NCBI RefSeq assembly: GCF_024399335.1
Contig: NZ_CP075339.1
Span: 2,728,001-2,792,000 of the forward strand
Length of the DNA stretch: 64,000 nucleotides
From: Leucobacter aridicollis
GTDB lineage: Bacteria; Actinomycetota; Actinomycetes; Actinomycetales; Microbacteriaceae
Direction: 5' to 3'
Shown here in pieces: positions 47,774 through 57,993 of the stretch. Within the stretch, counting starts at the first letter, position 1, and each line of letters opens with the position of its first letter. The position numbers and the translations under genes are program-made. The notes beneath the pieces are model-generated. The model searched no databases. It had not been told where the DNA came from and saw nothing but the letters and a program-made list of their open reading frames with translations.

Positions 47774-49390
47774 ATGCCTGACTCATCGCGATTCACGCGC
47801 AGGGGTGTGCTTGCTGCGGCAGCGGCGGGCGCGGTGACCGCGTCGATCGTCGCGCTCGGAGGCTGGCGGGTGACGAGGCGCCCGGTTCTCTCGCCCGAGA
47901 CGGGGTCAGGATCGGGAGCACAAGCCGGAGACGCTCTCGACCGCAGAGACCTCGCCATTCCCCGGCTTGACACCGGCACGGTTGGCGCTGACGGCGTGCG
48001 CGCCTTCGAGCTTGTCGCGGGCGCCGGCACGAGTTCGTTCGTTGCGGGCACACAGACGCCAACGTGGGGATACAACGGTGCATTCGGCGGCCCGACGCTC
48101 CGCGCGGCACAGGGCGAACGGGTGCGCGTCGTCGTGCGAAACGAGCTCGCCGAGGTGACGACGACCCACTGGCACGGCATGAAGGTTCCCGCAGCGGCCG
48201 ACGGCGGCCCACACCAGCCGATAGTCCCCGGCGACAGTTGGACAGCGGAGTGGACAGTCGAACAGCCCGCCGCGACGCTCTGGTACCACCCGCACAACCA
48301 CGGGACAACCGAGGCACACGTGTATCGCGGACTCGCCGGGCTTTTCCTCATCGAGGATGAGAAGCCTCCGGCCGACCTTCCGCTGCCGCGCGACTACGGC
48401 GTCGACGACGTCCCAGTCGTCGTGACAGATCGAAGCTTCACGGCCGACGGCGCGTTCGACGAGCGCAGGCGAGACGCCTCGGGAATGCTCGGCGACACGC
48501 TCCTCGTCAACGGCACCGTGTCGCCGCGCTTCAGCGCTACGAGGGAACTCACGCGACTGCGCATTCTCAATGGCTCCACCGCGCGAAGCTATCGCTTCCA
48601 GCTCGATACAGGCCCGCTAGTGCTCGTCGCGACCGACTCCGGGCTGCTGCCGAAACCGGTATCGGTCGCCGGACTCACGTTGACCCCCGGAGAACGCGCC
48701 GAGGTTATCGTTGCGCTCGAACCTGGCCAGACCGCAATGCTGCGCTCCGTGCCGCACACGCTTGGCCTGCTGAGCACCACTGAACGCGCGAGCGGTACCC
48801 GCGACACGTTCGACGTGCTCGAACTCAGCCGAGCCAACGCGGACGACAGCGCGCCACCGGGGACGGCGTCGACAGCCCCCGCGACGCTCACGGAAATGAA
48901 CGCCTGGGTTGCGGCGGGCGGGGCATTCGCCGCGCCACTCACAGATCCGCCCGAGCCCGACGTGCGGCGCACTGTCACTTTGCAAGACAACAAGATCAAC
49001 CATCGCCGGATGAATATGGCACGGATCGACGAGGTCGTCACAGTCGGCAGTCGCGAACGCTGGCTGATCACGAACGAGCATTTCCTCCCCCACAATCTGC
49101 ACATCCATAACGCGCGCTTCAGGGTGTACTCGATCGATGGCCGAAAGCCCACGGCTGAGCTGCGCGGCTGGAAGGACACCGTGTACGCGCCGCCGAGCCG
49201 CACAGTCATCATTGATGTTGAGTTCGGCACGTCGACAGACCCGCACATGCCCTACATGTTCCACTGCCATCTGCTCCAGTACGAAGATCAGGGCATGATG
49301 GCCCAGTTCGTCGTCGTGCGCCCGGGCGAAACCGCCGGGCCGCTCGACACACAAGCAATCGGCGATGGAGGTTCACATGCCGGCCACTGA
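47774..49390 (+). CDS. TAT-exported multicopper oxidase
   Basis: 538 residues. The Tat signal is SRFTRRGVLAAAAAGA, so the folded enzyme is exported. Copper motifs: HWHGMK, WYHPHNHGTTE, HFLPHNLHIHN and HCHLLQYEDQGMMAQF (type 1 Met ligand likely). The four sets fit a CueO/CotA-like laccase that oxidises Cu(I) or phenols. GGAGG is 5 bases before the ATG (CAAGGAGGCTC). It overlaps a small membrane protein gene by 14 bases, and the two form an operon. Confidence 0.93.
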   Translation: MPDSSRFTRRGVLAAAAAGAVTASIVALGGWRVTRRPVLSPETGSGSGAQAGDALDRRDLAIPRLDTGTVGADGVRAFELVAGAGTSSFVAGTQTPTWGYNGAFGGPTLRAAQGERVRVVVRNELAEVTTTHWHGMKVPAAADGGPHQPIVPGDSWTAEWTVEQPAATLWYHPHNHGTTEAHVYRGLAGLFLIEDEKPPADLPLPRDYGVDDVPVVVTDRSFTADGAFDERRRDASGMLGDTLLVNGTVSPRFSATRELTRLRILNGSTARSYRFQLDTGPLVLVATDSGLLPKPVSVAGLTLTPGERAEVIVALEPGQTAMLRSVPHTLGLLSTTERASGTRDTFDVLELSRANADDSAPPGTASTAPATLTEMNAWVAAGGAFAAPLTDPPEPDVRRTVTLQDNKINHRRMNMARIDEVVTVGSRERWLITNEHFLPHNLHIHNARFRVYSIDGRKPTAELRGWKDTVYAPPSRTVIIDVEFGTSTDPHMPYMFHCHLLQYEDQGMMAQFVVVRPGETAGPLDTQAIGDGGSHAGH

Positions 49391-49787
49391 TCGAATCCCG
49401 GCGGGCCGCGCGGTTGCGGCGGTCGCCCGCTGGACTCTGATCCTGCACGCGGCGTTGCTCGCCGCGCAGCCGTTTCTCGCGGGGGCGATGCTTGATGCGA
49501 TGAGCCCGAGCCCGCAGACGATGCACCGGATTGTCGCGATGACGGTCGTCGCCATCGCCATCGTGCAGGTGTTCGTCACGCTTGCAGCGTGGAAGGGCCG
49601 GGCAGGGTGGCCGCGCGACGCGTTCCACTTGTCACTCATGCTACTCGGGCTCGAGCTCGTGCAGTTCACGCTTGGGCATCTGAGCCTCGGAATGGCGCTG
49701 CACATTCCGCTCGGGATTGCCTCGCTTGCCGCGGGCGTCTACATTGCCGTGCGGTTCGCGAGGCGACCTGTGACTAACCGGGTCTAG
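49377..49787 (+). CDS. Small 4-TM membrane protein coupled to the multicopper oxidase
   Basis: 136 residues from the ATG at 49377, with GGAGG 5 bases upstream inside the oxidase gene. Four hydrophobic segments: about 16-38, 50-72, 84-105 and 108-128. His residues recur in the membrane (TLILHAALL, TMHRIV, DAFHLSL, LGHLSLGMALHIPLG), a pattern that could bind heme or copper. Overlapping genes suggest a redox partner or copper-handling role; this is inference. Its TAG lies inside the CTAG shared with the next, convergent gene. Confidence 0.7.
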   Translation: MPATDRIPAGRAVAAVARWTLILHAALLAAQPFLAGAMLDAMSPSPQTMHRIVAMTVVAIAIVQVFVTLAAWKGRAGWPRDAFHLSLMLLGLELVQFTLGHLSLGMALHIPLGIASLAAGVYIAVRFARRPVTNRV

Positions 49788-50665
49788 CTCGCCTCGATCT
49801 GGATCTCGTCTTCGTCATCACGACGCCGCTTCGCTGCGAACAGCATGAAACCGATGAGCAGTAGCGCGAGTGCGATGCAGATCAGGGCGAGCATGCCAGT
49901 GCCGCCTGTCACACTGATCTCGGGGGTCGACGTTTCGCCCGTGAGGTTCACACCAACATCAAAGCTCAGCTCGGTCGACGGAGCACCAGACGCGTTCGAC
50001 GTCTCAACGCCCGCGTCCATCGCGAACCCGAATGTGACTGGCACCGTTGCGCCCTTCGCAACCGCGACCTCGGCAACTGAAACGCGGTCACCGGCCTTCA
50101 ACGCCTCGAACGTTTCCTCGCCAGTCACGCCAGCGACATCCCAGAACAGCGTGACGTCCTTCGCAAGCTCAGGGTTCAACGCTCCCTCAGGGATGAGCTC
50201 GGTCACGTCAAGCGTCACGGCGGCAACGCCCTCACCGGGGCCTGCGTTCACGACGTTCAGGGTGCGGGTCACACGGTCACCGGGTGACGCCTTCCGGTCG
50301 CCGATGAATGTGGTCTCCGCCCGCGCGTACTCGGCTCCGGTCCAATCCAGGTGAACGGCCGGGCCGTCCCATTCCGCCTGAATCGTCGCCGCGGGAAGCG
50401 TTGTCGCGCCCTGTACAGTCGTCCCGCTACCCAACCGCTCAGGCGCTTGCGGCGTCCCGCCAGCGGCGACAGTGTTCGTACGGCCACCAAACATCGGCAG
50501 CGAGTCGGCCATCGCGAGCGCGACACCGGCTCCGAGGAGCAGCAACACAGTGAGAATACCGGCGATGAACTTGCCTCGCGCGCTCATCCCATGGCCGGCG
50601 TCGACGGTGAGCACCGTACTGGCAGCGCGCGTCGCGTGGTCGTCTGTGGAGATACGCAAGGTCAT
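49784..50665 (-). CDS. Surface protein with N- and C-terminal membrane segments, SipW-type locus
   Basis: 293 residues. A cytoplasmic N-terminus leads to a membrane segment (about 31-53), then a beta-rich external domain (about 55-255) with KASPGDRVTRTLNVVNAGPGEG, similar in style to camelysin or DUF11-like domains. The C-terminus is VTGGTG, a 20-residue membrane segment and AKRRRDDEDE, laid out like a cell-wall sorting signal but without LPxTG. The ATG overlaps the signal peptidase stop (ATGA). It may anchor or initiate the fibre made by the upstream genes. Confidence 0.7.
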   Translation of the reverse strand: MTLRISTDDHATRAASTVLTVDAGHGMSARGKFIAGILTVLLLLGAGVALAMADSLPMFGGRTNTVAAGGTPQAPERLGSGTTVQGATTLPAATIQAEWDGPAVHLDWTGAEYARAETTFIGDRKASPGDRVTRTLNVVNAGPGEGVAAVTLDVTELIPEGALNPELAKDVTLFWDVAGVTGEETFEALKAGDRVSVAEVAVAKGATVPVTFGFAMDAGVETSNASGAPSTELSFDVGVNLTGETSTPEISVTGGTGMLALICIALALLLIGFMLFAAKRRRDDEDEIQIEAS

Positions 50666-51555
50666 CCCTCGTTTCGGTGGTTCGGCGTAACGTGTGAGTG
50701 CTTCGCGTCTGCAGCTGACGCTTCGGGCTCGGTTGACTTCAGGAGGGCTTCTGCCTCTGTGACTGCGTCTCGCCCGCCCATTGCGAACGCAAGTTCGCGT
50801 TCCCTGAGCTCGATCTCCCGCTCACGCAGCGCGAGTTCTCGCTCTCGAAGCTCTTGCTCTCGCGGCTCCGCAGGCGGGGCGAGATATCCCGCGACAGGCG
50901 CGGCTCCTGAGGCGCCAGGCGCTCCGGGCCCAGTTCCCTGAGGCCGCGGCACCGAGACGACAGTCGTGCGGGGCTTGCGGAAGCTACTCAGCGCTCCCCA
51001 GCCGATCAGCACTGCCGCAGCTATGGCTGCAACGATCATCGGGTTTTGCGATACCCACTGGCGGGCCCAGCCGAGCCCGGGAACGCCGTACATGAATACG
51101 CCGCGGACCTGCGCTGGCGAAACTGGCTCGTCGACAGCGGAGTTTGCGTCGCCCTGCGTGATGAGACGGCAGGAGGTCCCATCCTCAAAAGTGCCAATCG
51201 TCTTACCGATCACGCGGTGTGTGATGAGTGTCGGGTCATTCGGTTCTGGAAAGTAGGTGACAATCTGCCCAACCGACACGTCGTTGCAGACCTTCGCCTC
51301 GTCAGTTCCCTTGACGACAACAACGTCGCCCGGGGAGAACGTCGGCTCCATAGAGCCAGAGAGCACGGTCAGCGAGTCTCCGCCGAGCACCCGCGGCACA
51401 ACAAGCAGTGCCGCGAGAGCCGCGATGACAAGAATGGCGAAGGCGGACCCGATCGCGCGGGCAGCAATCTGCCAGGGCGAGTCATACCAGCCGCGGGTCT
51501 CCCTGCGGACTACCGAGCGCGTAGGCTTCCTGCGTGCGTTCGTAGCGGTACTCAT
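50662..51555 (-). CDS. SipW-type (ER/archaeal-like) signal peptidase I with helical tail
   Basis: 297 residues. TM1 is at about 32-57, then the S26B catalytic set: Ser68 in LSGSMEPTFSPGD, His113 in LITHRVIGK (His in place of the usual bacterial Lys) and Asp in QGDANSAVDE. TM2 is at about 172-190. A Pro/Gly/Ala linker and a charged repeat helix (ELREREL-ALREREIELREREL, about 235-257) follow, unusual for this family. It should cleave the alternate signal peptides of the three neighbouring exported proteins. ATG with GGAGG upstream. Confidence 0.9.
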   Translation of the reverse strand: MSTATNARRKPTRSVVRRETRGWYDSPWQIAARAIGSAFAILVIAALAALLVVPRVLGGDSLTVLSGSMEPTFSPGDVVVVKGTDEAKVCNDVSVGQIVTYFPEPNDPTLITHRVIGKTIGTFEDGTSCRLITQGDANSAVDEPVSPAQVRGVFMYGVPGLGWARQWVSQNPMIVAAIAAAVLIGWGALSSFRKPRTTVVSVPRPQGTGPGAPGASGAAPVAGYLAPPAEPREQELRERELALREREIELRERELAFAMGGRDAVTEAEALLKSTEPEASAADAKHSHVTPNHRNEG

Positions 51556-51611
51556 CGGATCCTCCTCTCAAGGACTGTGGGTGTTGTGCGGGGTTGAAGT
51601 GTGAGGGGGGA

Positions 51612-51674
51612 ACCCCGCAGGCCCTGCCGGTGGCCTGGCCTGCGGGGGTCCCGGTGCTCGCGCGATGCGCGAGC
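51612..51674 (-). promoter_or_regulatory. Two hairpins between the SipW substrate and signal peptidase genes
   Basis: In transcription order: a perfect 8-bp stem GCTCGCGC-ATC-GCGCGAGC (51674-51656), 9 bases after the 51683 stop, then a longer stem ACCCCcGCAGGCC/GGCCTGCGGGGT (51649-51612) followed by TTCCCCCC. They probably stop or slow some polymerases, so that the substrate gene is expressed above the peptidase. Confidence 0.6.
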
Positions 51675-51682
51675 TGGGGCAC

Positions 51683-52501
51683 TTAGTTGAACTGTGCGCC
51701 GGTGTCGCGGACCTGGTTCAGCGAAACTGTCAGCTCGCCGAGGGTGTCAACAGCGGTCACGTCGATGCGATCCTCAACTGTCACATCGGTGTCCTGGTAA
51801 CGGAAGTCGCCGTTCTGATCCTCGTAGAACGAAGCGTAGATGACAACGGTGAGGTCCTCCGAAGTTGTCGGCATACCGAACACTGCCGACTGCGCTGCTG
51901 CGCCGCCTACTGCGGTTGCTGCACCCAGGATGCCGTTCGTAGCATCCTCGGCGCCTGCGTCCTGGCCGGTTGCAGGAGCCGAGAGGTACAGGAGGGGTGC
52001 GTCAGCGGTCTTCGGCAGCGCGGTCTCAGTGACGAGCAGCTTGCCGTCGTAGTAGACCTCGTAGCTGTAGTTGATGCCCGAGACGTTCTCCTGCAGCTTG
52101 TCAAGACCGTCGATCCCTACGCGAGCGACGAGGTTGTCGCCGTCAAGCGTGGCCGTAGCGCTGAAGGATGCAGCGAGCTTGTCGCCCGGAGCAATCCGCC
52201 AGGTCGCAACGTCGGTGATCTCGTGGCCCGGCTGCTGGGTGCCGTCGGTGCCGGTTACCGGGTCAGTTGCGTCCTTACGGTCGTTCGACACATCCCAGAA
52301 CGAGGTGTCGGCCGACTGAACGAGGTTCAGATCACCGGCGGTGATGTCGCCGCCCGAGAACGTGTCGGATGCTGACCAGAGGGCGAAGGTCGAGCCGCCG
52401 ATGAGGAGCGCAGCGGTACCTGCAGCTACCCACATGAAGCCCTTGCGGCGCTTGTTCTGCTCGGTGACAACGATGACCTGGTCGTGGTTCGTGTTCGACA
52501 T
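51683..52501 (-). CDS. SipW-dependent-type exported protein (putative main fibre subunit)
   Basis: 272 residues. The alternate signal peptide is clear: KRRKGFMWVAAGTAALLIGG then FALWSASDTFSGGDITAGDL. The mature part is acidic and beta-rich, with a TasA/camelysin-like opening (GDITAGDLNLVQSADTSFWD) and no Cys, Trp-rich core or anchor. It ends QVRDTGAQFN. The start has AGGAGA. Its position before the double hairpin, and a poly-C tract 79 bases upstream, suggest separate regulation. A fibre-subunit role is inferred from the SipW pairing. Confidence 0.85.
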   Translation of the reverse strand: MSNTNHDQVIVVTEQNKRRKGFMWVAAGTAALLIGGSTFALWSASDTFSGGDITAGDLNLVQSADTSFWDVSNDRKDATDPVTGTDGTQQPGHEITDVATWRIAPGDKLAASFSATATLDGDNLVARVGIDGLDKLQENVSGINYSYEVYYDGKLLVTETALPKTADAPLLYLSAPATGQDAGAEDATNGILGAATAVGGAAAQSAVFGMPTTSEDLTVVIYASFYEDQNGDFRYQDTDVTVEDRIDVTAVDTLGELTVSLNQVRDTGAQFN

Positions 52502-52579
52502 GATGGTGTTTCTCCTAGTTGGTTGAGCGCAGGGGGATGCAGACCTCGGTCGGCGCTCAGCGCCAAGGCCACGTTTTAT

Positions 52580-52589
52580 GGGGGGGGGG
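52580..52589. repeat. Homopolymer tract of ten C (minus strand)
   Basis: Ten G on the plus strand, ten C in transcription order. It starts 1 base after the stop of the 301-residue gene and 79 bases before the ATG of the next SipW-type gene. It is the longest homopolymer I noticed in the window and a candidate slippage site. Confidence 0.9.
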
Positions 52590-52590
52590 A

Positions 52591-53496
52591 TTAGTCGCGA
52601 GGTGAAAAAGCGGGGTTCACGTTCGTGACGATCGGGTCAAGCGAGATGACGAGGTCTGGCTCGCCTGACGGGTCTGGGTAAATATCGGCGTCCCACTCGG
52701 CGGAGGCTTTCGCCTTCGTCGTGTCTTCTGCCGTCGCCTCGACGTTCGCAAGGTTGCGGTACACGCCGAGAAGTTCGAGTGCCGGCGGGAAGCCGACCTG
52801 GGAGTGCCAGCGGGCGATGGCGCCGTTCGCGCTGCCATCCTCCGCGACGCTGGTGACCCGTACGTCGTTGATGTACGTGCCGTCAGCGATCGAGTTCCAG
52901 CTGATCGCCGCACACCACTCCTGGCTCGTCTCGGTGCCGTCGAGTGCGGTGCCGGGAGCCTGAAGTTCGACATCAGCATTGCCAAAGAGATAGATGTTCT
53001 TTGGTTCCTCACCCTCTGGCGTCTCGGGAGTCGCGGGAACTGCAGAGCAGTCACCGCCGTCACCAGCGCGGAACACCTTGAGTGTCGACTTTTCGAGCAC
53101 CGTGACAGGCTTCGCCACGCCAGAGGCCACGCTGTGAGGCTCCTCGCCATCCTTCACCTGTTCAGTGACGGCGACGTCGTAGTTCAGCCCTGCAATACCG
53201 AGCGCGTTCCCACTCGCGGTGAACCGCCAGATAACCGGGTCCGCGTCGATGGTGGTCTGATCGAGCACCTCGATGATCTTCTTGCCTGGCAGAGTGACAG
53301 TCACCGGAGCGCCACCGGCCGAGTAGCCAGGCTCAGTCACTGTCTCAGAGGCAGCGCCAAACCGGACTGCGCCGAGCGATACGTCGGGGACAGTTGCACC
53401 GACCCGAGCGCTCCAGAGAGCTGCGGCCGCGAGGCCGCCAGCGAGGAGCACGACAACCGCGCCGGCGGTGACTACGTTACGGGTACTGCGCTTCAT
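52591..53496 (-). CDS. Exported protein with SipW-like signal peptide
   Basis: 301 residues. The n-region KRSTRN and hydrophobic segment lead to ALWSARVGATVPDVSLGAVRF, which matches the ALWS hallmark of alternate signal peptides. The mature part is beta-rich with two Cys (GGDCSAV, EWCAAISWNS) that may form a disulfide. No C-terminal anchor. It starts 3 bases after the preceding gene; ribosome site GGGGAGGG lies within that gene. It may be an accessory or cap subunit. Confidence 0.75.
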   Translation of the reverse strand: MKRSTRNVVTAGAVVVLLAGGLAAAALWSARVGATVPDVSLGAVRFGAASETVTEPGYSAGGAPVTVTLPGKKIIEVLDQTTIDADPVIWRFTASGNALGIAGLNYDVAVTEQVKDGEEPHSVASGVAKPVTVLEKSTLKVFRAGDGGDCSAVPATPETPEGEEPKNIYLFGNADVELQAPGTALDGTETSQEWCAAISWNSIADGTYINDVRVTSVAEDGSANGAIARWHSQVGFPPALELLGVYRNLANVEATAEDTTKAKASAEWDADIYPDPSGEPDLVISLDPIVTNVNPAFSPRD

Positions 53497-53499
53497 GGA

Positions 53500-54177
53500 T
53501 CAGCCCTCCCCGTTCTTGTAGCCATCGCCTGAGCGGATTTGCTCGAGCGTCACATTGATGCCGTCAACCGACCACTTGTCGAGGTCGTCGAGTGGCGCCT
53601 TGTCTGTCCAGCGGTAGTCACCGAGCACCTCGATCGTCACTACGACGGTCCAGTTCGCGGTCACTCCGTCGTTGCTGCCGGTGAGGCCAGCAACGCGTAC
53701 CGGCTCGCCGAGCTCTGCTTCCTCGGAGGCGGGCTCTGACTGCGCATTCTCGACAACGTAGGTTGCCGCGAGTGTGCCGTCCGCGATGCTCTGCTCCGCG
53801 CCCGACCCCATCTCAACGTTCATGCGAGCGTTGAGGTTGTCACCCTGAAGCACAGTGGTGAGCGGGACTCGGATCTCGACGATGTCGCCAGGCATCGAGT
53901 GGAAGCCGGCGGTGCCGCCTGCCAGTGTGCCCGCGGCGGGGGCAGCCACCTCAGGGGTGATCTGCGCCCACGTACCCTCGCCGTAGCTCAGGTTCAGGTC
54001 ACCGGCCGCGACCTTTCCGCCTGCGAAGTTGTCCTGCGCATTCCAGAGGGCGTATGCGGCTCCACCTGTCGCGAGCAAGCCAACCGCTGCGATCGTCGCA
54101 CCCGCAATGAGCTGTGTTCTATAGCTCATTCCTTGGACCCGTTTTCGGGCCGCGCCGAAGGCGCTTCTGGGTTTCAC
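53500..54177 (-). CDS. SipW-dependent-type exported protein
   Basis: 225 residues from the GTG at 54177, which overlaps the stop of the beta-helix gene (GTGA). An ATG at 54129 (MSYRTQLIAGATIA) is an alternative that gives a shorter n-region. The signal is GGAAYALWNAQDNFAGG, then KVAAGDLNLSYGEGTWAQIT. The mature domain is camelysin-like and ends in the pattern WSVDGINVTLEQIRSGDGYKN. No anchor. It is 3 bases from the next SipW-type gene. Confidence 0.82.
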   Translation of the reverse strand: MKPRSAFGAARKRVQGMSYRTQLIAGATIAAVGLLATGGAAYALWNAQDNFAGGKVAAGDLNLSYGEGTWAQITPEVAAPAAGTLAGGTAGFHSMPGDIVEIRVPLTTVLQGDNLNARMNVEMGSGAEQSIADGTLAATYVVENAQSEPASEEAELGEPVRVAGLTGSNDGVTANWTVVVTIEVLGDYRWTDKAPLDDLDKWSVDGINVTLEQIRSGDGYKNGEG

Positions 54178-57014
54178 CTGGAACCACCGACAGTCGTATC
54201 CTCAGGGATCAGGCTGCCGCAGGCGGAGAGCAGGGTGCTCTTGCCAACCGCGAGCGACGGAACCGTACCGATGACACCGTTCTCACCCAGCCGGGTGTCA
54301 GTGTCTGTGACAGTGATATCCGTCAGCTCTGTTGCCCAGTCGTCAGCTGAGATGTTCGACACCTCGTAGACGAAGCAGACAGCCTGGCCGTCAGTGAGTC
54401 GTGCCCCTGCAAGAGCCTCTGTCCCGGTTGCCATGATCTGCGCCGGCGACGACGCGTCCGTGACGTCAGTGAAGGCACGCTTGGTGATCTTCACCGAGGG
54501 ATCCGTCGAGAACAGCTTCACAAGAAGGTCGTTCACGACAAGCCCATCGAAGTTGGTGTCGTCAGACGACACCGTGTGGCTGAAGCGCACCGGCGTATTC
54601 GCGGGGACGTCGCCAGCTGCAGCGGTCACCTTGATCTTGCCCGAGCTTGTCGCGCCAGCTGCGATGACCGCGTTGACGTTCGAGAGTTCGACGCTGTTTT
54701 CTGTCGCAGCCTGGTCAGGCGTCGCAACGAAGTTCAGATCAGATGCGGGCTTCGGGGCGCCAGACGAGACCGTGAACTCGTACTGTTTGCCAGACGGCTC
54801 ACCCGTTACCAGCGTGAACGAGCCAGGCTTCGCCTGCACGGGGTTGATGAACGTGATGTCAGGGTCGGTGCTCGTCGCAGCGTCACGGTTCGTGAGCCCA
54901 CCCGAGCTCGTCACCTTCTCAGCCGCGATACCAGCGGTCACCTTCGCCGAGTCATCAACCCGTGCTATCACGGTGAACTCGCGGTTCGCGCTTCCCGAAA
55001 CTGGCTTCACCGACACTGAACGAGGGTTCAGGCGGCCCGCATCGATGGTCTCGGAGACCGCAGCAGCGGTCACGTCGACGACACCAGCGGTCACACTCGC
55101 GGGGTTCAGCGGCAGCGACGACTTGACTGTGTAGTGCAGGTCGCGTGCCATTGTCGAATCGTTCTGCGTCGCCGACTGATCGATTGAGATCTCCGGGCGG
55201 CAGTTACCACTGAAGCCGACCATTCGCGAGTACTGCGATGACTGACCAGTGGTCGCGCCAACGGTCTGAACTCGAACATAGCCCTGGCCAGCACCAGTGT
55301 TCGCATCAACAATTGTCGCCTCGTCGAACTCGCCGACGACCGTCGACGGGAACTTCTGCGGGCCGACAGGAAGGTCAAGCAGCAGCTTGGCGCTTGCGCC
55401 TGTGAGGCCCTCGACGCGGCCGAGGTATACCTCTGCGGTACGGTCCGCGGTCCAGTACAGGTCGAGATCGACCGTGCTCTCAGGGAGCGGGAGGTCGCTC
55501 GGCGCCGATACGTCAAGCGTCGCAACACATGCGGGCACGTCTTCAGCGAGCGGCGATTCGACCTGGATCGAACCTGCAGGTGCATCATTGGTGAGCACCG
55601 CGGCGGTACCTGTCGGGTACCACGTCATTACGCGGCCGTTCGCATTCGTGTTGTTGTCAACGAGCGCAGTCACTCCGTCGCGGCCTTCCTCAGCCGTTCC
55701 CGGCCGGTTCTGGCTCGCGCTCCGAGCACCAAAGGTGTTCTTCTCCACGTTCACATTGCCCGTGTTTTGCAGGTAGACCGAGTTGCCGGTGTATCCGTTG
55801 AAGTAGTTGTTTGCGATGCGCATGTCACCGGCGTTGCCAGTGGTCGTGTTGCCGTTCCAGGCAATCGCGTGGCTCTGCCCACTCGTCGCACGCACGAATT
55901 GGTTCCCAGTGATCTGGTTCTTTCCACCAATCTGCCCATAGGGCAGCGTGATGAACGCGTTGTACACTCCGGTGCCGTAGCCCTGAACGTTAATAAACTC
56001 GTTGTCAGTGATGTTGATGTTCGAGGCCTTAACGCTGTAGCCGGCGGCTGCGTTGGTCGTGAACGGGAATGCGACCTGGTTCGTGAGGTTCGACACGAAC
56101 GAGTTCTTAAACGTAAACCCATCAAGCACGACGTTCTGATTGCGGGGCAGGAACTGCATGAGGCTCGTGCGGCAACCAGAGCCATCGCTAGCTGTGCACC
56201 GTCCGCCAACCGTATAGGTGACGCGCACGTTGTCGATCGTCACATTCTCGATCGGGGTGTTGTTTTGCGCATTGAAGTAGAACAGACCCGTCGCGGTGCC
56301 AGCGTCGTAGAACCCCTGCACACGGTAGTTCTTCAGGGTGATGTTCTTGGAGCCCTCGCGGAACACGATGAAGCGCTCGGGGCCGTAGTGGGCCTGAGTC
56401 ACCGAAGAGCCGCCGTCAATGGTGACACCATCGGCCTTCGGCCCCATCACAAATGACGACTCAGCAGAAAGCATCTGCGTGACGTTCTTAAACACGATGT
56501 CCTTGCCGTTCACGTGGAACAGTGCACCGCCAACGTCACGTGACGCCTCAACTGTGACCTCATTCTTGAGGTCGATCGTCACCGGGCTGGTCACAAGGAA
56601 GTGGACCCCGGAGTCTTGGTTAGACACAAGCCCGGTCTGCATGTACTGATAGCTCGTACCAACAGGGTCGATGTTGCCAGTGAAGCCGGGAGCCGGAGTG
56701 ATGAGCACCGCGCCAGGCGCGAGGTTCAACGCGTTCGATTCCTCAAGCGCAGCCCGCAGGGTACACGTACCTGCCGCGGTCGCGCAGACTCCGTCGCCGG
56801 GGTTCGCGTCCTTTGCATTGGCGCTCACATCGGCCGAGTTCAGCTCGAATGTGTGGGTGACAGCCTGAGCGGACGACGCCGGCAGGAACGGGCTCGCGAT
56901 CAGCGCTACCGCGAGAGCGGCGGCAGCAAACGCACCTCCGCGCCGCCTGTGTAGACGTCCGGCCGCGTGGCGTGATGCTGCGGCCGCTCCGCCTGTGCTC
57001 GCTCGATGTCGCAT
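54174..57014 (-). CDS. Large secreted right-handed beta-helix surface protein
   Basis: 946 residues. A Sec signal peptide ends SSAQA at about residue 51. The mature start has DGVCATAAGTCTLRAALEES, the CSLREA-like cap of parallel beta-helix proteins. A beta-helix of repeated short strands follows (VTIDGGS, NITLKNYRVQGF, NVTIDNVRVTY, NINITDNEFINV), about 70-450, then three or four Ig-like/DUF11-type domains. It ends TVGGSR, with no LPxTG or membrane anchor. The start is an ATG after GGAAGGGG. As first gene of the operon it may be the tip adhesin or a surface-layer partner of the fibre. Confidence 0.8.
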   Translation of the reverse strand: MRHRASTGGAAAASRHAAGRLHRRRGGAFAAAALAVALIASPFLPASSAQAVTHTFELNSADVSANAKDANPGDGVCATAAGTCTLRAALEESNALNLAPGAVLITPAPGFTGNIDPVGTSYQYMQTGLVSNQDSGVHFLVTSPVTIDLKNEVTVEASRDVGGALFHVNGKDIVFKNVTQMLSAESSFVMGPKADGVTIDGGSSVTQAHYGPERFIVFREGSKNITLKNYRVQGFYDAGTATGLFYFNAQNNTPIENVTIDNVRVTYTVGGRCTASDGSGCRTSLMQFLPRNQNVVLDGFTFKNSFVSNLTNQVAFPFTTNAAAGYSVKASNINITDNEFINVQGYGTGVYNAFITLPYGQIGGKNQITGNQFVRATSGQSHAIAWNGNTTTGNAGDMRIANNYFNGYTGNSVYLQNTGNVNVEKNTFGARSASQNRPGTAEEGRDGVTALVDNNTNANGRVMTWYPTGTAAVLTNDAPAGSIQVESPLAEDVPACVATLDVSAPSDLPLPESTVDLDLYWTADRTAEVYLGRVEGLTGASAKLLLDLPVGPQKFPSTVVGEFDEATIVDANTGAGQGYVRVQTVGATTGQSSQYSRMVGFSGNCRPEISIDQSATQNDSTMARDLHYTVKSSLPLNPASVTAGVVDVTAAAVSETIDAGRLNPRSVSVKPVSGSANREFTVIARVDDSAKVTAGIAAEKVTSSGGLTNRDAATSTDPDITFINPVQAKPGSFTLVTGEPSGKQYEFTVSSGAPKPASDLNFVATPDQAATENSVELSNVNAVIAAGATSSGKIKVTAAAGDVPANTPVRFSHTVSSDDTNFDGLVVNDLLVKLFSTDPSVKITKRAFTDVTDASSPAQIMATGTEALAGARLTDGQAVCFVYEVSNISADDWATELTDITVTDTDTRLGENGVIGTVPSLAVGKSTLLSACGSLIPEDTTVGGSR

Positions 57015-57291
57015 GTCGAGGTGTCCCCTTCCAATCGCTGTTCTTCCCTTACAAGAACAGCCTGACCGAAGGAATGTGGGGTGAGTATTGCGAATGACAA
57101 CGCTGACGAGCCGCTGAGTAGCAATCCATACGCAACTGAGTATCTGCAACGACCTACCCAGCAGGGTCCCTAAGTAGGAGATTGCATTTATGCCCCACAG
57201 CCAAGGCACTGGTAGTACGTAGTCGAAGCCAACTACCTACAGCACGTCCCCGGCCCCCTCAGGCCGCGCGGGCCCGCTCAGTTGAACACTC
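57015..57291 (-). promoter_or_regulatory. Long leader/promoter region of the SipW-type operon
   Basis: 277 bp without a gene. Near the start codon is a perfect 8-bp hairpin CTGTTCTT/AAGAACAG with a 7-base loop (57038-57060). Further up are an inverted repeat GTAGT-N8-ACTAC with outer GTAG/CTAC (57212-57240) and the palindrome CCTAAGTAGG (57170-57179). I found no convincing -35/-10 pair. The region looks regulated rather than constitutive. Confidence 0.45.
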
Positions 57292-57993
57292 TTACGAGAG
57301 CAGTCCAGGGTCGCTCGAGTGCCGGGTCAGCTCCTCTTCGAGCGCCGCGCGCATGGTCCCACCGATGACCCGATCGGCGCCGGCGACACCGATGCCCTCA
57401 AGCGCTGCAATCGCCTCCCCCGCCGACGCCCGCGCTGCCTCACTCGCCATGATGACTGCGCGCGCGTACTCGGCCCGATCCGCTTCGGCAACGAGCACCG
57501 GCTCCGCACCCATCTCGACGACGAGCGCCTGCCCGATCGGCTGCACAACTGCTGGGGCAGTCACGGCGACAGTCGCCCCCGAGAGCCGTGTGAGGTCGAG
57601 GCTTGTGCCGGTGAACACGATGCCAGGGTGCAGCGCGATGGGAATGACCCCTGGGGCGTCACTGAACACCGCTGTGCCGTATTCAGGCGCCGTATGAATG
57701 ACAAGCTGGCCTGGCTGCCAAGCGCCAAGCTTTGCGAGCCCGGAGACCAGGCCAGGAAGTTCGCTGCCCGGCACAGCGAGCAACACCATCTCAGCCCGCC
57801 TGACGACTTCCTGCACGTCGAGGATGGGAACGCCTGGCAACATCGCCTCGGCGCGTTCCCGGCTCTCTTCGCTCAGCGCACTGATACCGACAATTGCGTG
57901 ACCAGCGCCAGCGAGCGCGCGTCCCAGTACTGGGCCAACCTTGCCGGCGCCGACAATACCGATTCCGAGTCGGCTAGATTGCAGGCCGCTCAT
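57292..57993 (-). CDS. DUF2520 Rossmann-like protein
   Basis: 233 residues. The N-terminal NAD(P) motif is IGIVGAGKVGPVLGRAL, then the reductase-like fold and a DUF2520 helical domain (HPGIVFTG). It is somewhat shorter than typical family members. In many actinobacteria it lies beside folK and pantothenate genes, as here next to the folate cluster; the substrate is unknown. It overlaps the PH-domain gene by 20 bases. Confidence 0.85.
   Translation of the reverse strand: MSGLQSSRLGIGIVGAGKVGPVLGRALAGAGHAIVGISALSEESRERAEAMLPGVPILDVQEVVRRAEMVLLAVPGSELPGLVSGLAKLGAWQPGQLVIHTAPEYGTAVFSDAPGVIPIALHPGIVFTGTSLDLTRLSGATVAVTAPAVVQPIGQALVVEMGAEPVLVAEADRAEYARAVIMASEAARASAGEAIAALEGIGVAGADRVIGGTMRAALEEELTRHSSDPGLLS

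Follow-up and report, generated by a model that had tools for sequence, protein, structure and literature searches.

A conserved SipW-type secretion cassette with a beta-helix-like lead protein in Leucobacter aridicollis: a candidate surface-display system

The locus and its six genes

We analyzed a 64,000-nt stretch of the single-contig, 3.6-Mb genome of Leucobacter aridicollis (the whole stretch is hereafter referred to as the window) and focused on six genes that encode a large Sec-exported lead protein, three exported proteins with SipW-type signals (S1, S2, and S3), a SipW-type signal peptidase I, and a sixth protein with terminal membrane segments. A sequence-only reading of the same DNA had placed six same-strand genes here, and all six open reading frames (ORFs) were confirmed on the minus strand at the positions listed below. 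Three details of that reading were also recovered: (i) the ALWN signal of S1 and the ALWS signals of S2 and S3, (ii) residues Ser68 and His113 of the peptidase, and (iii) membrane segments at both ends of the sixth protein, which hydropathy places at residues 30-59 and 249-281. Other loci, genomes, and proteins are designated by L, G, and P numbers, respectively.

54174..57014, minus strand: lead gene (BH), 946 residues, with a Sec signal, a CSLREA-like cap (below cut-off), a beta-helix-like region, and a predicted C-terminal DUF7507-like domain at residues ~837-935
53500..54177, minus strand: S1, exported SipW-type protein with ALWN signal; TIGR04089 56.0 bits (cut-off 60)
52591..53496, minus strand: S2, exported SipW-type protein with ALWS signal; TIGR04089 weak, 20.5 bits
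51683..52501, minus strand: S3, exported SipW-type protein with ALWS signal; TIGR04089 63.8 bits (cut-off 60)
50662..51555, minus strand: signal peptidase I of SipW type (Ser68/His113); TIGR02228 78.5 bits; charged LREREL-repeat tail from residue 236
49784..50665, minus strand: sixth protein, candidate wall or membrane anchor; one membrane segment at each end and, at residue 250, ISVTG as a degenerate sorting motif
57082..57142, minus strand: promoter region with three TACTCA boxes; relative to the lead start codon, they start at -128, -106, and -73, with spacings of 22 and 33 bp
49766..57301, no strand: inserted cassette, approximate extent; alignment with the empty site of G019 runs up to ~49765 on the left and resumes at ~57302 on the right

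The best start of the lead gene is the ATG at 57014, from which its homologs align. In comparison with one near relative (L056), the ratio of nonsynonymous to synonymous substitution rates (dN/dS) is 0.06-0.14 for all six genes, and thus they are real, conserved genes and not chance ORFs. Scans of the region with Rfam (at the gathering threshold) and for sigma-70 promoters and terminators gave nothing usable.

Conservation and distribution of the cassette

To describe the neighborhoods of the lead gene, we examined 18 loci outside the window that encode a relative of the lead protein (15 loci plus L056, L057, and L118); the neighbors of metagenomic homologs are outside this set. The sequence-only reading had proposed a SipW-type locus whose first gene encodes a beta-helix-like protein and had named a lack of co-occurrence of the genes in related genomes as the outcome that would speak against it. 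This proposal is supported, as all six genes stand together and in the same order at 14 of the 18 homologous loci (L054, L055, L056, L057, L059, L060, L061, L062, L064, L078, L079, L080, L086, and L118). Hosts of the complete loci belong to Leucobacter and Microbacterium, and one Leucobacter genome, G001, carries two copies. Some genes of these loci are broken: the S3 gene of L057 is split over two frames, and the lead genes of L064 and L080 are in pieces. At L058 and L081, the cassette is interrupted by a contig end, and L063 is rearranged, with the peptidase gene and the sixth gene upstream of the lead. In a metagenome-assembled genome of Propionibacteriaceae (L088, 1004-9906), we observed two large lead-like genes, the other cassette genes being absent from the available 11.8 kb.

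The cassette is patchily distributed. The lead profile matches 13 of 54 genomes of the genus at E <= 0.001, 12 of them strongly, and the only S2 match among 150 family genomes from 85 genera is the window's own. The order sample adds two family members with S3 relatives, G266, which has a full cassette (L118), and G464 (L119). The protein distance matrices of the six proteins from 13 loci are correlated (r 0.63-0.94); in Mantel tests, none of 999 permutations was as high for 14 of the 15 protein pairs, and 8 of 999 were for S3 versus the sixth protein.

Insertion site

In two congeners without a lead match, G019 and G033, the flanking genes of the window are contiguous and the cassette is absent. 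This empty site therefore identifies the window copy as an inserted cassette. The flanking genes are a multicopper oxidase gene and what we take, partly from general knowledge, to be lysS, the gene of a 140-aa protein, a DUF2520-type gene, and PH-domain genes. At the cassette ends, no direct or inverted repeat of at least 9 bases was found, and for this reason no insertion mechanism is proposed.

Comparison of a few kilobases of flank, with L118 outside the comparison, revealed that the window has neighbors in common only with L056. Six other loci (L054, L058, L059, L061, L062, and L078) have all or part of another site in common, the flanks of L080 and L086 have some genes in common, and the remaining flank sharing consists of regulator genes. 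The unit occupies different places in related genomes and is probably a horizontally moved cassette.

The site itself is variable. At the insertion place of the cassette, G035 (L146) has other DNA of ~5.6 kb, located between the DUF2520-type gene and a piece of the 140-aa gene. The multicopper oxidase and the 140-aa membrane protein, encoded beside lysS at 47774-49787 of the window, are missing at this site in G016 and G003 (L148 and L149), where the oxidase is absent and lysS adjoins the DUF2520-type gene.

Lead proteins of the cassette and of related modules

The beta-helix assignment of the sequence-only reading is plausible through annotated homologs and is unproved for the window protein. 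Five homologs (P0013, P0015, P0017, P0018, and P0048) are named right-handed parallel beta-helix repeat-containing protein, and a further homolog, P0039, has a precomputed PF13229 assignment. With a cut-off of 25.9 bits, the Pfam Beta_helix family scores 9.7 bits in the window lead and 23.0 bits in the Microbacterium homolog of L086. Searches of solved structures by sequence gave no match for the single lead protein, the single S3 protein, or the lead profile.

Profiles of the six proteins also detected related modules with a different lead. Matches of the S3, peptidase, and sixth-protein types occur together in 13 of the 14 loci from the order search (L119-L132), the only exception being L132, which has no sixth protein; the same three types stand together in a congener locus, L066. 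In the related modules, S1-type matches are common and S2-type matches are weak. Across the order, S3-type matches at E <= 1e-25 are present in 19 of 297 genomes.

The leads of the related modules differ from that of the window. Eleven of them were given to Pfam, one of which (L125) is uninformative because of a wrong reading frame; no lead was located in L120 or L126, and the gene that precedes the L132 substrate does not look related. A C-terminal DUF7507 domain is above cut-off in 8 of the 11 scanned leads (L066, L119, L122, L123, L124, L127, L128, and L129), and the L121 and L131 leads have no Pfam family. VWA domains are above cut-off in L066, L128, and L129 and below it in L122, L123, and L124, and prealbumin-like domains exceed the cut-off in L066, L123, L124, and L129 and fall short of it in L122 and L128. 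The L119 lead is intermediate, as it joins a part resembling the window lead (217 bits) to a DUF7507 tail. The module, as judged from these architectures, carries an exchangeable secreted lead, the predicted beta-helix being one of several lead kinds. Upstream of the cassette at L060 (11831-13471), a leucine-rich-repeat protein with a LANTG-like C-terminal end is encoded.

The window lead apparently ends in a domain related to the tails of these other leads. A profile built from the eight DUF7507 tails of the related modules scores 24.9 bits at residues 837-935 of the window lead and at most 5.8 bits in 200 shuffles of the same protein; it scores 54.2 bits in L119 and 16.7-25.7 bits in five other relatives. 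The alignment of the window lead tail with the eight-tail profile by hhalign has a probability of 94.5.

Substrates and signal peptidase

TIGR04089, the model of SipW-exported family III (cut-off 60), places S3 above the cut-off, S1 just below it, and S2 far below. The C-termini of S1-S3 have neither a membrane segment nor a sorting motif. S1 matches PF12389 with 15.6 bits over residues 8-51 only, weak PF12389 matches occur in 21 of 77 S3 relatives (the best at E 5e-4), and the only match to the TasA equivalog is that of the L123 substrate, with 16.2 bits against a cut-off of 450 over residues 11-63. Among the best 60 of the 190 matches of the S3 profile to solved structures, no TasA chain was found. 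These best 60 of 190 are GFP-type chains (best E 0.009), which were rejected and taken as chance.

The peptidase scores 78.5 bits with TIGR02228, the archaeal and endoplasmic reticulum-like signal peptidase I model (cut-off 51.85), and 52.7 bits with the Bacillus SipW equivalog NF046067 (cut-off 190). Motifs with Ser and His, which replace the Ser/Lys pair, were found in all 30 peptidase relatives examined. The charged tail follows the last membrane segment of the peptidase, and its RERE repeats are present in all 15 other peptidases encoded beside a full window-type lead and in none of the 15 remaining ones, among them that of L119. The genome holds six TIGR02228 matches, four of them above cut-off; the weakest, beside an rnhB-like ORF, looks like the housekeeping LepB.

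Sixth protein and sortases

Relatives of the sixth protein end in a motif followed by a membrane segment and then basic residues. A strict L[PA]xTG motif is present in 16 of the 29 proteins of the family (a number that includes the window protein, itself not strict) and a looser sorting motif in 28 of 29; in L063, the motif lies behind the membrane segment, and in L131 it reads LEFTG. LAITG and LAVTG motifs occur among the relatives, and, of 18 aligned members, 12 reach E <= 0.01 with the LAVTG model NF058582. LAXTG is given in a published account as the signal of class E sortases (PMC5148588). The last 110 residues of the sixth protein contain two CxxC motifs in L055, L062, L063, L079, L080, L086, and L118. 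Such a CxxC...CxxC tail behind the last membrane segment is unusual for a sortase substrate and is absent from the window protein.

The sequence-only reading had called the locus self-contained and had stressed that it lacks a sortase. The window indeed encodes none by PF04203, as none of the genome's six matches lies at window coordinates. Self-containment is doubtful, however, since a class E sortase is encoded elsewhere in the genome: of the four matches that were typed, three are class C sortases and one, with 205.7 bits against a cut-off of 160, is class E. Searches with four of the genome's own six sortases as queries found no sortase near the cassette in the fetched flanks of the relatives. 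Given the sorting signals in the family of the sixth protein, anchoring may borrow the class E enzyme, although the window protein itself has a degenerate motif.

Promoter boxes and regulators

In the 300 bp upstream of the lead genes, TACTCA in the lead orientation occurs in 23 copies at 12 of 16 loci (L055, L063, L079, and L086 lack it), compared to at most six copies of any other permutation of the hexamer and three copies in the reverse orientation. The tandem pattern TACTCAN{14,18}TACTCA occurs once in the window versus 0 in 100 shuffles, and three times in the genome versus 0 for the backward control. The three genomic sites lie before the cassette, before the giant lead of a second SipW-type locus, and within an ORF that looks unrelated. 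The second locus (L153:1-12359, L017; ~2.88-2.89 Mb) encodes a SipW-type peptidase and is led by a giant surface protein of up to 3226 aa, with a sorting-like C-terminal end and four TACTCA boxes in front. A further SipW-type locus, L065 in G024, contains three peptidase genes, two near-identical substrates, a 1125-aa ORF, and a tandem TACTCA in the other orientation.

Large regulators are encoded beside the cassette or a related module at L057, L060, L062, L063, L066, L072, L073, L080, and L086. Two of them were scanned: GerE is above cut-off in both, and AAA_16 is above cut-off in L066 and below it in L080. The others were assigned by similarity, except those of L072 and L073, which were assigned by reading. 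In our reading, a LuxR-type helix-turn-helix end immediately precedes the lead gene at L057 and L118. Within the L. aridicollis genome, these regulators have their closest relative at 2279103, next to a sortase gene (L012/L023). We suggest that the regulators may bind the TACTCA boxes.

Functional interpretation

Sequence analysis shows a conserved unit, its insertion, a related tail of the lead, a sorting-signal family for the sixth protein, and a shared promoter box. Our best reading is a cassette for surface display or for a pilus, with heads that can be exchanged and with fiber formation as a prediction; we assign a probability of about one half to the proposal that the locus is a horizontally moved cassette for display of a surface adhesin. 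Processing, assembly, anchoring, and ligand binding by the cassette proteins are predicted as follows: (i) the cassette peptidase would cut S1-S3 once they are Sec-exported, (ii) S1-S3 would assemble into a short stalk or fiber, TasA-like strand complementation being one possibility, (iii) the lead protein would be located at the outer end, held by its DUF7507-like tail, and its beta-helix may bind a surface glycan or another ligand, and (iv) the sixth protein would tie the assembly to the membrane or wall, in many relatives probably via the housekeeping class E sortase. The operon would be switched by a STAND-LuxR regulator through the TACTCA boxes.

Tentatively, the display proposal can be extended to an undescribed class of actinobacterial pili. 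In such pili, S1-S3 would be matured by their own SipW-type peptidase and assembled without a pilus sortase, an exchangeable VWA or beta-helix tip would be carried on a DUF7507-like tail, and the class E sortase would fix the structure to the wall via the sixth protein, the whole being cassette-borne and switched by the STAND-LuxR regulator and TACTCA boxes.

Several observations weigh against the display proposal. Pfam detects no VWA domain in the window lead and makes no DUF7507 call in the window, L118, or L086 leads. Domains of the DUF11/DUF7507 type are widespread in actinobacterial surface proteins, and thus a common tail argues no more than moderately for a common role. Beyond the signal region, nothing was found that links the S1-S3 sequences to TasA or camelysin. 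The motif of the window sixth protein is degenerate, and the protein scores 22.2 bits with NF058582, below the cut-off of 27; the sixth protein of L063 has no sorting motif before its membrane segment, and eight other TIGR04089-type loci (L065 and L067-L073) have no clear sixth-protein relative (at most 19 bits). No STAND-LuxR gene adjoins the window cassette, a weak relative being encoded ~14 kb away. Finally, the loci with TACTCA boxes are not independent, because many are close relatives or have a common site.

The alternative that survives best, possible although on balance unlikely, is a wall- or membrane-tethered complex without a fiber, in which S1-S3 would act over a short range as scaffold or chaperone subunits and display the beta-helix protein, maybe a glycan binder or polysaccharide lyase. 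Each of S1-S3 is present in one copy, the three are distinct, and S2 is weak by TIGR04089; single-copy, distinct proteins suit a defined complex. Many beta-helix proteins are lyases or bind glycans, which also counts for this alternative. The VWA, prealbumin-like, and DUF7507 domains of the related leads argue against it, as they form a pilus-tip-like architecture; the VWA/prealbumin-like arrangement parallels the tips of sortase-assembled pili of the SpaA type.

The SipW-type signals, together with a SipW-type peptidase whose charged tail lies behind its last membrane segment, would also suit a TasA-like biofilm matrix, with S1-S3 forming free fibers like TasA or CalY and the beta-helix protein serving as a matrix adhesin. 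We consider this improbable, as no sequence relation to TasA was found beyond the signal and the sixth protein is of the anchor type. A genomic passenger of loosely linked parts without one shared function, to which the patchy distribution (a strong lead match in 12 of 54 genomes of the genus and an S2 match in 1 of the 150 family genomes sampled) and the broken lead or S3 genes of L057, L064, and L080 could point, is very improbable in view of the gene order kept at 14 of 18 loci, the correlated divergence, and the low dN/dS.

Comparison with known systems

The literature searched, with most subscription papers outside its scope, contained no description of this cassette. Similarly to SipW/TasA/TapA of Bacillus subtilis and SipW/TasA/CalY/CapP of Bacillus cereus, the cassette encodes a peptidase beside substrates with their own signal-peptide type. 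Unlike the Bacillus systems, it has a large lead with a Sec signal, three distinct substrates without detectable sequence relation to TasA beyond the signal, and a sixth protein from a sorting-signal family. Assembly of the B. cereus system is described as sortase-independent (PMC9674648, PMC13082335). By the comparisons made here, the cassette is a variant of SipW-type loci, and none of the sequence tests made places it in the TasA family.

The nearest annotated family is TIGR04089, 'alternate-type signal peptide domain-containing protein', of which S3 is a member by score and S1 falls just below the cut-off. This model describes one substrate kind, and the module of the cassette, its exchangeable lead, its anchor, and its promoter box are outside the model.

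The cassette resembles sortase-assembled pili of the SpaA type in two respects: the related leads have VWA, SpaA-type, and DUF7507 domains, and the sixth family has a sorting signal. It differs from these pili in that four own sortases, used as queries, detected no sortase in the flanking DNA retrieved for the relatives, and in that S1-S3 have signals of the SipW type and neither a membrane segment nor a sorting motif at the C-terminus. The LAITG and LAVTG motifs of the sixth-protein relatives, along with the class E sortase of the genome, are similar to the situation for class E (LAXTG) substrates; the ISVTG motif of the window protein and the CxxC-CxxC tail behind the membrane segment in seven relatives are unlike it.

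The TACTCA promoter box offers a handle for finding the rest of the regulon, and actinobacterial surface structures made from SipW-type exported proteins, if formed as predicted, become testable by single-gene deletions. In comparison with the known systems, the cassette would join SipW-type maturation and sortase anchoring, usually treated separately, in one movable unit with a swappable head.

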